From Gillisia limnaea DSM 15749 (GTDB lineage: Bacteria > Bacteroidota > Bacteroidia > Flavobacteriales > Flavobacteriaceae), in the NCBI RefSeq assembly GCF_000243235.1, contig NZ_JH594606.1:62001-126000 (forward strand): a DNA stretch of 64,000 bases. The letters are read 5' to 3'. The notes beneath the pieces are model-generated. The model searched no databases and was not told where the DNA came from. It saw nothing but the letters and a program-made list of their open reading frames with translations. This document shows positions 12,491 to 14,343 of this stretch, one piece after another; position 1 is the first letter of the stretch; the number at the start of each line of letters is the position of its first letter. The position numbers were made by a program, and so were the translations under genes.

Positions 12491-12506
12491 TACTACATTT
12501 GTAGTA
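12491..12506 (+). promoter_or_regulatory. BlaI/MecI-type operator overlapping the -7 element
   Basis: TACTACATTTGTAGTA is a perfect 7-base inverted repeat (TACTACA/TGTAGTA) around a TT centre. It closely resembles the TACA...TGTA operators of BlaI/MecI repressors. The internal TACATTTG (12494-12501) also matches the TAnnTTTG -7 element. A BlaI dimer bound here would occlude the promoter of its own gene, which starts at 12521. Confidence 0.75.
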
Positions 12507-12520
12507 AAGAAACTATAATT

Positions 12521-12901
12521 GTGGATATAAAACAGCTAAATAAATCGGAACTACAGGTAATGAAGTATTTGTGGAAGATCAAGACAGGTTTTCTTAAAGA
12601 TATTGTAGAACAATTCCCGGAGCCTGCACCTGCTTACACCACAATATCTACATTGGTGGGAAGGATGGTTGATAAAAATTACATAGGCTTTAAAAAATTA
12701 GGCAGGGATAAACAGTATTATCCTATTTTACAGAAGAACGAATACTTTAGTGGACAGGTAAAGGATATGGTCTCCAACTTCTTTAACAATTCCGCTTCGC
12801 AATTTGCTTCTTTCTTTACTAAAAATGCCGACCTGAGTATGGAGGAAATGGAAGAACTACAAAAACTTCTTCAGGAGAAGATTCAAGAAAAGAAAAAATA
12901 G
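12521..12901 (+). CDS. BlaI/MecI/CopY family transcriptional repressor
   Basis: This 126-residue protein opens with LNKSELQVMKYLWKIKTGFL. The winged-helix DNA-binding domain covers roughly residues 5-75 (recognition segment AYTTISTLVGRMVDKNYI). A helical dimerisation tail follows, rich in Glu/Lys. It starts with GTG at 12521, 14 bases after the end of a BlaI-like operator. Two bases separate its stop from the next ATG (the M56-amidase gene), so the pair is an operon. By analogy with BlaI/BlaR1, the membrane protease is expected to trigger loss of repression, probably by cleavage of this protein; that is inference. Confidence 0.92.
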   Translation: MDIKQLNKSELQVMKYLWKIKTGFLKDIVEQFPEPAPAYTTISTLVGRMVDKNYIGFKKLGRDKQYYPILQKNEYFSGQVKDMVSNFFNNSASQFASFFTKNADLSMEEMEELQKLLQEKIQEKKK

Positions 12902-12903
12902 CG

Positions 12904-14343
12904 ATGGCAGATTATCTATTCTATTCCGTTATAGGGCTTGGTATTTCTATAATATTATACAGAAGTTTCCTTAAAAAAGAGAAGCTATTTGTATTTAATA
13001 GATTTTTTCTCCTCAGCTCTCTTTGCCTTTGTCTACTTGCTCCGGTACTTCAAATTGATTATGGTTTTAATTTCGAGCCGGTAAAAAAGATAAAGGTGGG
13101 TGAAATAATTTCTTCAGAAGAAATTGTTGCAGAGGATCCTGAGAAAAGTAGTGTGGAAACAATTTCTGCTCCTATGGTCAACTACAGGAACTTTATCAAC
13201 TATATTTATTGGATAGTAACTGCTGTCTTTCTGGTCCGTTTTGCAAAAAATATTTTGTTACTCCTGTTCCTTATTAAAAGGGAAAGATCCGGGAGGATTG
13301 GTAAGCTTACGACCGTTTTGCTTAAGGAGCGAGGTAACCCTTATAGTTTTTTTAATTACCTGTTCATTCACCCGCAAGATCTTAAGGAGGATAAATACCT
13401 GGACCTGGTGCTGATACATGAAAAGGCTCACAGCCGGCAATTACACTCGGCCGATATTCTTTTCCTGGAATTTCTCGGATGTTTTTTCTGGTACAATCCC
13501 TTCCTGTGGTTATATAAAAAAGAGATCCTGGAGAACCATGAGTACCTGGCAGATGAGGCTGTAATAAAAGCAGGAGGTAACAGGGAAGTATATGCTTCTC
13601 AATTAGTAAAGTCTGGCGGAAAAGTTTTGCAGCCTTTATTAAGCGGCTTTAGTTTCATTCAAACCAAAAACAGATTAAATATGCTACACATTAAAAGATC
13701 ATCCCGAAGCCGTATTGCTTTAAAAGCCGGCATCACATTATTTCTTTTTGCTGCCGTTTTTGCAGTAAGTTCATTTAATACAATAGGTAATCCTGCTCCT
13801 TTTGTAGTCGTTGTAGATGCAGGACATGGAGGAAAAGATTCCGGAAACAATGAAGTTGAATCCCTCGAAAAAGAAATAAACCTGGCAGTTGCAATTAAGC
13901 TACTGGCGCTTGGCAATGAAAAAGAAGTTAGAGTAATCCTTTTAAGGGAAAGGGATGAATTCCTAAGCCTTGAAGAACGGGTAAATTTTGTAAATGCCCA
14001 AGGTGCAGACATGTTTCTGAGTCTCCACTGTAATGCCTCGGGCGACAATCAAAAAAGCGGGGCAGAGGTAATCTTTAGTCCTCAAAGTAATAGTGCATCC
14101 CAGTCTGCAAAATACAGCAGGCTACTGGCGAATCACCTGCTACAAACTGTTGAGACGGCAGAAATTAAGAAATCAAATTTCTTTGTTTTAAAGAATAGTG
14201 ATATTCCGGCCGTGATGATCGAGATGGGATTTATGACCAACACGCGGGATTTTGCCTTACTCCGTGACAATCGCTATCATCAGGAGCTGGCAGAAGGAAT
14301 TTACAACGGTCTCCTCTCCATAAAAAATGAAATTAACGAATAA
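12904..14343 (+). CDS. BlaR1-like M56 metalloprotease fused to N-acetylmuramoyl-L-alanine amidase (Amidase_3)
   Basis: This 479-residue membrane protein has transmembrane helices at about residues 5-20, 33-50 and 100-124. The M56 zinc-protease site HEKAH is at 172-176, with the downstream ligand region ENHEYLADEA at 210-219. A further membrane helix spans about 273-290. A complete Amidase_3 domain then runs from about 299 to 475. Its zinc and catalytic residues are all visible: DAGHGG (His308), EKEINL (Glu322), SLHCNA (His375) and IEMGFMTN (Glu440). The amidase would face the periplasm and takes the place of the beta-lactam sensor of BlaR1. It is co-transcribed with the BlaI repressor. The domain order is clear; a sensing role for the amidase is inference. 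Confidence 0.9.
   Translation: MADYLFYSVIGLGISIILYRSFLKKEKLFVFNRFFLLSSLCLCLLAPVLQIDYGFNFEPVKKIKVGEIISSEEIVAEDPEKSSVETISAPMVNYRNFINYIYWIVTAVFLVRFAKNILLLLFLIKRERSGRIGKLTTVLLKERGNPYSFFNYLFIHPQDLKEDKYLDLVLIHEKAHSRQLHSADILFLEFLGCFFWYNPFLWLYKKEILENHEYLADEAVIKAGGNREVYASQLVKSGGKVLQPLLSGFSFIQTKNRLNMLHIKRSSRSRIALKAGITLFLFAAVFAVSSFNTIGNPAPFVVVVDAGHGGKDSGNNEVESLEKEINLAVAIKLLALGNEKEVRVILLRERDEFLSLEERVNFVNAQGADMFLSLHCNASGDNQKSGAEVIFSPQSNSASQSAKYSRLLANHLLQTVETAEIKKSNFFVLKNSDIPAVMIEMGFMTNTRDFALLRDNRYHQELAEGIYNGLLSIKNEINE

Follow-up and report, generated by a model that had tools for sequence, protein, structure and literature searches.

A BlaI-type repressor gene and an M56 protease–Amidase_3 fusion as a recurring gene pair in Bacteroidota: a possible autoregulated switch

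The locus and its products

The window (the whole 64,000-nucleotide stretch of Gillisia limnaea DSM 15749 DNA that was analysed) contains a gene for a BlaI-type repressor that is followed, after a gap of only 2 nt, by a gene encoding an M56 zinc protease fused to an Amidase_3 domain (Table 1). A preliminary description of the locus had claimed this arrangement, together with the HEKAH protease motif, a single membrane helix between protease and amidase, an amidase with all its catalytic residues and a perfect operator dyad upstream, and the present analysis confirms each of these features. Pfam identifies Peptidase_M56 at residues 163–260 of the fusion (3.8e-13; 49.7 bits against a cut-off of 31) and Amidase_3 at residues 302–470 (2.3e-46; 158.4 bits against a cut-off of 27).

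Table 1. Coordinates of the gene pair and of its sites, motifs and domains in the window
Feature	Position	Strand	Details
Operator TACTACATTTGTAGTA, perfect dyad TACTACA-TT-TGTAGTA	12491..12506	.	Covers TACATTTG; putative BlaI site
Second, degenerate operator-like dyad AACTATAATTGTGGAT	12511..12526	.	5 mismatches; offset of exactly +20 bp from the first
BlaI/MecI-type repressor	12521..12901	+	126 aa, GTG start; Pfam Penicillinase_R 7.3e-28
M56 protease–Amidase_3 fusion	12904..14343	+	479 aa; Pfam, residue conservation, model, fold, profile
HEKAH, zinc protease motif	13417..13431	+	Residues 172–176
EYLAD, matches ExxxD part of BlaR1 gluzincin signature	13540..13554	+	Residues 213–217
Fourth membrane helix	13705..13773	+	Residues 268–290; AlphaFold helix, hydropathy peak
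Amidase_3 domain	13801..14334	+	Residues 300–477; His308, Glu322, His375, Glu440

The membrane domain carries both HExxH and ExxxD, the two parts of the gluzincin signature given for BlaR1 (H201EXXH/E242XXXD; available part of PMC9834060), and both are kept among the fusions described below. The penicillin-binding sensor is absent from the C-terminal part of the window protein, where Pfam shows Amidase_3 alone. By analogy with the family, His308, Glu322 and His375 are taken to be zinc ligands and Glu440 the catalytic residue; with its fold, these residues mark the domain as a putative enzyme. For comparison, the residues named for CwlD are His49, Glu65 and Glu199 (PMC8496864, in part). The more specific NCBIfam models are not reached: the best amidase model, CwlD, scores 113.5 bits (cut-off 221.55) and blaR1_generic 18.6 bits (cut-off 400).

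The repressor matches Pfam Penicillinase_R well above the cut-off (97.7 against 22.6 bits) and its residues 5–120 align with those of MecI (1okr; E 4.4e-9). Since it falls below the cut-offs of the NCBIfam BlaI, MecI and CopY models alike (the best being CopY/TcrY with 51.1 bits against 121.95, followed by BlaI with 44.7 against 180), we name it a repressor of the BlaI/MecI/CopY superfamily, for short BlaI. Phe99 of this protein aligns with Phe102, the P1' residue of the cleavage site in Staphylococcus aureus BlaI (PMC9834060, in part), and a phenylalanine occupies this position in 39 of 44 distinct BlaI sequences from fusion loci, although its conservation is only suggestive of BlaI cleavage.

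Distribution and conservation of the fusion

A survey of M56–Amidase_3 architectures, proposed in the preliminary description, yielded at least 46 distinct fusion proteins, of which 44 have a BlaI gene directly upstream (−44 to +10 nt). The two outside this count are an interrupted copy (L148) and one at a contig edge (L097). The collection combines fusions from a contig scan with those from genome surveys, loci L218–L221 entering no count. In the contig scan the best 80 of at least 507 stretches encoding a relative were taken, and 39 of the 80 hold fusions, including two that repeat L008 and L011. The samples of the genome surveys overlap, and scoring in the family, order and phylum covered 3 to 5 candidates from each genome (the 3 best in the phylum), so that the resulting counts are lower bounds: full-length fusion relatives occur in at least five of 299 family genomes (G000, G157, G262, G040 and, in two pieces, G117) and at least three of 395 order genomes (G000, G157, G544), and fusions in at least six of 395 phylum genomes (G000, G157, G808, G787, G1017, G756). 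Within the genus sample the fusion is present in four of 16 genomes (G000, G662, G668 and, interrupted, G670) and absent from the other 12. Sources include Winogradskyella, Psychroserpens, Gelidibacter, Mangrovimonas, Lacinutrix, Zunongwangia, Pustulibacterium, Marinigracilibium, a Crocinitomicaceae MAG, Niastella, Longitalea and Mucilaginibacter, amongst others; the fusions of G262 and G117 are the same proteins as those on the Mangrovimonas xylaniphaga and Pustulibacterium marinum contigs. The possibility that the fusion is an isolated case or an assembly artefact, named beforehand as a reason to abandon the idea, is thus rejected by its homologues in many genera.

In the 38-row alignment the fusions are 24–41% identical to the window protein. 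The zinc ligands His308, Glu322 and His375 are kept in all 46, as are E213, D217 and the Glu and second His of HExxH; the first His is kept in 45, the exception being the interrupted L148. In the first five fusions aligned, HEKAH (its KA excepted) and the four amidase residues are invariant. Glu440 is kept in 42 of the 46. The remaining four (L097, L102, L103 and L108) read LGN where the others read E(L/M)GF, which implies that catalysis is not needed everywhere. Nor does the fusion appear to be essential, since it is interrupted in G670 and was not seen in 12 of 16 congeners or, among the candidates scored, in most genomes of the phylum sample. The interrupted copy in G670, a congener, has stops and a split frame and lies behind a BlaI gene with a 1-mismatch operator.

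The presence of BlaI beside an M56 gene is the usual state in the collected loci: of 106 distinct M56 ORFs that are not fused and have at least 250 aa, 97 have BlaI beside them, and it is missing from eight of the 104 whose upstream sequence exceeds 420 nt. The pairing alone is therefore unremarkable; it is the amidase that is remarkable.

Operator and target range

TACTACATTTGTAGTA is the sole perfect match to the operator in the window. Only this site stands out there, because matches with up to three mismatches are no more frequent than chance would give (2 against 1.82 expected). TACATTTG, which the dyad covers, fits what we take to be the −7 element of Bacteroidota promoters (consensus TAnnTTTG), so bound BlaI should block the promoter. 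At the 45 distinct fusion loci with BlaI, the best dyad has no mismatch in 28, one in four, two in two, three in three and four or more in eight; in other words, an operator with at most two mismatches is present in 34 and lacking in 11. The 11 comprise L093–L096, L098–L102 and L108, from Chitinophagaceae, Mucilaginibacter and one uncultured Bacteroidetes, and L038 of G544. A TACA/TGTA dyad, a candidate binding site, is thus kept at BlaI's own promoter across fusion loci.

The second dyad overlaps the GTG start codon of BlaI. In the 34 upstream regions with operators of at most two mismatches, the sequence at offset +20 shows a mean of 4.97 mismatches, as against 9.79 (sd 1.39) at other offsets, and the second dyad has only 2–4 in L103, L086, L087 and L091 (two in L103). 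This putative operator element is thus conserved in relatives.

How far does the operator extend beyond this operon? In the 3.97-Mb genome of the window strain the perfect dyad occurs once, at the fusion operon. The one site with a single mismatch falls within an ORF, and a dyad with two mismatches is found where another BlaI gene starts. With up to two mismatches there are 27 sites, the perfect one included, as against 31 for a reversed-pattern control, and accordingly no wider regulon is visible. Five of eight other fusion genomes have exactly one perfect site, adjoining the fusion operon, and three (G670, G117, G544) have none, the control pattern matching once in one of the eight and not at all in seven. 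There is accordingly no sign of a wider regulon of perfect sites. Judged from these site counts, the operon most probably controls mainly itself and, since the perfect operator is found only here, its own product would be the main output. Weaker BlaI sites of an unrecognised kind may exist.

In 17 loci from Winogradskyella, Psychroserpens, Gelidibacter, Mangrovimonas and their kin, a homologous upstream gene is divergent and starts just 28–119 bp from the operator, a proximity that makes co-regulation possible, and this gene may be a second BlaI target in the Winogradskyella lineage. In the example at L066:3958-5532, Pfam gives SnoaL-like domains alone, one of them C-terminal. No divergent neighbour of that kind lies beside the operator in the window. 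Among 40 next-downstream genes (39 loci and the window), 14 are on the same strand, 10 of those within 150 nt, and no third operon gene common to the fusion loci was found. Seventeen loci share a downstream family (acyl-CoA-dehydrogenase-like by eye) and 17 share the upstream family; both are best read as synteny, and the neighbourhood comparison revealed no neighbour common to all fusion lineages.

Structure, topology and comparison with known systems

An AlphaFold monomer built on the 38-row alignment (mean pLDDT 85.4, pTM 0.66, residues 54–92 below 50) predicts three N-terminal helices, the protease, the fourth helix and a compact amidase, the last beginning with a strand at residues 300–306, some 10 residues beyond the helix. 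Hydropathy gives four peaks and the charge pattern fits an N-out/C-out topology, which is that of BlaR1 (PMC9834060, in part, where BlaR1 is also described as a domain-swapped dimer; further background in part of PMC7593790). The stretch between the fourth helix and the amidase (aligned to residues 290–301) spans 10–25 residues in 45 of 46 fusions and 69 in L011, and such a short linker suggests a membrane-proximal substrate.

Measured by target length, Foldseek TM scores for the amidase part are 0.87 for CwlV (1jwq), 0.85 for LytH and 0.79 for CwlD, and these compact enzymes share its fold and its zinc and catalytic residues. They differ in that the window amidase is built into the M56 protease of a repressor switch. 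The E. coli amidase AmiC differs in another respect: its amidase region contains an insert of about 44 residues with no counterpart in the fusion profile. These extra residues presumably hold the autoinhibitory element. Such a loop is carried by AmiA, AmiB and AmiC (PMC8496864, in part), and the divisome trait of these enzymes, an autoinhibitory element relieved by EnvC or NlpD, does not appear in the fusion profile, which is without the AmiC residues.

The fold match to BlaR1 in the model is modest: the transmembrane and protease chain 8exr scores 0.62 and full BlaR1 chains 0.30–0.31, at ranks 35–39, also by target length. By sequence, the fusion profile matches BlaR1 across profile positions 8–294 (E 3.6e-13). 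In common with BlaI–BlaR1 and MecI–MecR1, a BlaI-type repressor adjoins a four-helix M56 gluzincin with HExxH and ExxxD whose C-terminal domain is predicted to lie outside. There are two differences: that domain is Amidase_3 rather than a penicillin-binding, lactamase-like sensor, and the visible target of the window system is its own operon rather than a lactamase or PBP gene.

Evolution of the fusion

Two further sets of M56 proteins come close to the fusion in architecture. The BlaI–M56–TonB_C proteins of Bacteroidota share the N-terminal M56 domain and, mostly, the upstream BlaI gene, but end in another domain, though one Chitinophagaceae protein (L093) has M56, Amidase_3 and then TonB_C. 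When 98 of the 106 distinct other M56 proteins were scanned with Pfam (the eight truncated ones being dropped), TonB_C was found in 39 and Peptidase_M23 in one, L092:6001-7347 from the contig scan, where an M56 protein with BlaI present ends in an M23 endopeptidase domain. With L092 as the query, 395 order genomes yielded four more full-length M56–M23 proteins (G539, G491, G475 and G367; L228–L230 and L232). Pfam gives M56 and M23 in all four, and M23 in all five with L092, and the M23 motifs were judged by eye to be complete. BlaI lies upstream in each of the four, with a candidate dyad (3–4 mismatches) within 600 nt. The M23 endopeptidase has a fold unrelated to that of the amidase yet sits in the same place behind BlaI; M56 has thus acquired wall hydrolases of two unrelated kinds. 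Single M56 proteins match ExbD/TolR or POTRA and four match Plug, which indicates that the C-terminal part of these M56 proteins is highly exchangeable.

A single origin of all fusions was rejected, both by a tree of the M56 domains of 45 fusions (all but L148) and 104 other M56 proteins (AU p 0.008) and by the amidase tree, in which 45 fused domains group together (95/90) to the exclusion of the 17 stand-alone amidases fetched, whereas the fused domain of G544 pairs with a stand-alone amidase (99/92). These trees require that fusions arose at least twice independently. More than two origins are unsupported, since the deep branches of the M56 tree are weak and several are long. That M56 has repeatedly been joined to wall hydrolases, Amidase_3 at least twice and M23 as well, suggests design rather than chance fusion.

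A possible mechanism and its alternatives

Starting from the two genes, their architecture, the complete catalytic residues, the conservation of the fusion and the conserved and unique operator, we favour, at a probability of about 0.45, an autoregulated BlaR1-like switch, the most economical model, in which a periplasmic amidase is both the input and the main output. The matches to BlaR1 in profile, fold and predicted topology, the Phe99 alignment and the repeated joining of M56 to wall hydrolases also speak for it. Points that tell against it are the divergent gene at 17 loci, which lowered our confidence, the four fusions without Glu440, the patchy occurrence of the fusion, the 11 loci whose best dyad exceeds two mismatches, the modest fold match, and a model that is a monomer where BlaR1 is a domain-swapped dimer. 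We infer the following chain of events. BlaI on the dyad over the promoter would repress its own gene and that of the fusion. The latter would be an inner-membrane protein with both termini outside, its M56 zinc protease in the cytosol and its Amidase_3 domain held in the periplasm on a short tether beyond the last helix. The substrate, probably uncrosslinked peptidoglycan or muropeptides, would lie close to the membrane; once the amidase engages it, a conformational change passed through the last helix would activate the protease, which would then cut BlaI near Phe99 and derepress the operon. As the main response product would be more membrane-tethered amidase, the domain could serve as input and output at once.

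Another account, which we consider unlikely though still the strongest competitor, is that BlaI and M56 answer some other cue and that the amidase does no sensing but is a wall enzyme, inducible and anchored in the membrane, perhaps gated by the M56 membrane part in the way that LytH depends on ActH and CwlD on GerS. Catalytic residues kept in 42 of 46 members, the operon as sole perfect-site target and an M23 enzyme in the same place all speak for an effector, as do the need of LytH and CwlD for a partner protein (PMC8496864, in part) and the rank of both among the near folds. Against it stand the position of the amidase, which is precisely that of the sensor in BlaR1, and the four members without the catalytic Glu, which keep both fusion and zinc ligands. 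The same four members, with that same position, suit the opposite view, that the domain merely binds peptidoglycan or muropeptides and turnover is irrelevant, much as BlaR1 uses a lactamase-like fold for binding. We regard this as improbable: binding alone would not require the full catalytic set seen in 42 of 46 proteins at 24–41% identity, and independent fusions have also taken up enzymes with complete motifs (the G544 amidase and, by eye, M23).

Amidases release stem peptides. The product of the fused domain might therefore act as the signal itself, a cytosolic breakdown product inactivating BlaI directly, with M56 trimming the peptide or cutting BlaI; one operon would then both produce and read the signal. 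This alternative is a live one since BlaI and MecI are inactivated by the stem-peptide dipeptide gamma-D-Glu-m-A2pm or its -L-Lys counterpart, and the authors of that work proposed BlaR as the peptidase that makes the BlaI-inactivating dipeptide (PMC3305447, in part). The peptide would still need to be taken up, however, and no neighbour common to all lineages was seen, and we think it no more probable than a domain that only binds.

Relative to the wall-sensing switch put forward in the preliminary description, the favoured switch retains the BlaR1-like architecture, the complete amidase, the conserved operator and the homologues. The emphasis on the amidase as sensor has shifted: as the operator survey points to the operon's own product as the main output, the domain may act as an effector no less than as a sensor. 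More broadly, Bacteroidota might possess a receptor class in which an intact wall hydrolase (Amidase_3 at least twice, M23 separately) is joined to an M56 protease that cuts the repressor, so that the signal would be the act of engaging or cleaving the wall and the induced product the same enzyme; in the amidase form a freed stem peptide may inactivate BlaI. This generalisation is tentative, and we would sooner doubt it than assume it.

The BlaI, M56 and Amidase_3 families are known, and what seems new, as far as the literature showed, is their combination as one switch. No description of an M56–Amidase_3 protein was found among open-licence papers, judged from listings, although absence there carries little weight. 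The earlier view that such a system is undescribed stands to that extent, but M56 in company with a wall hydrolase is not itself new: M56 is named in a review of M23 enzymes as one of the catalytic domains that occur together with them (PMC9662197, in part). The system is compact enough for testing how M56 proteases, with no beta-lactam involved, relay an event in the periplasm to a repressor in the cytosol, and it bears both on the direct readout of wall hydrolysis and on whether peptidoglycan fragments control BlaI.

Related genes in the genome and genus

The genome of the window strain holds three further BlaI–M56 pairs (L179, L180 and L181), one of which (L181) has the dyad TTCTACAAATGTAGAA at the start of its BlaI gene. 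Elsewhere in this genome (C2:201207-202901), seven operator-like 2-mismatch matches follow one another in steps of about 240 bp, one step doubled, and are probably a repeat array. Short stand-alone Amidase_3 genes also occur in the genus (L182, L183, L197 and L206–L210), two of them in the genome of the window strain, and these are divergent from a recurring run of genes that, with labels assigned by eye, resembles a conjugation (Tra) module.
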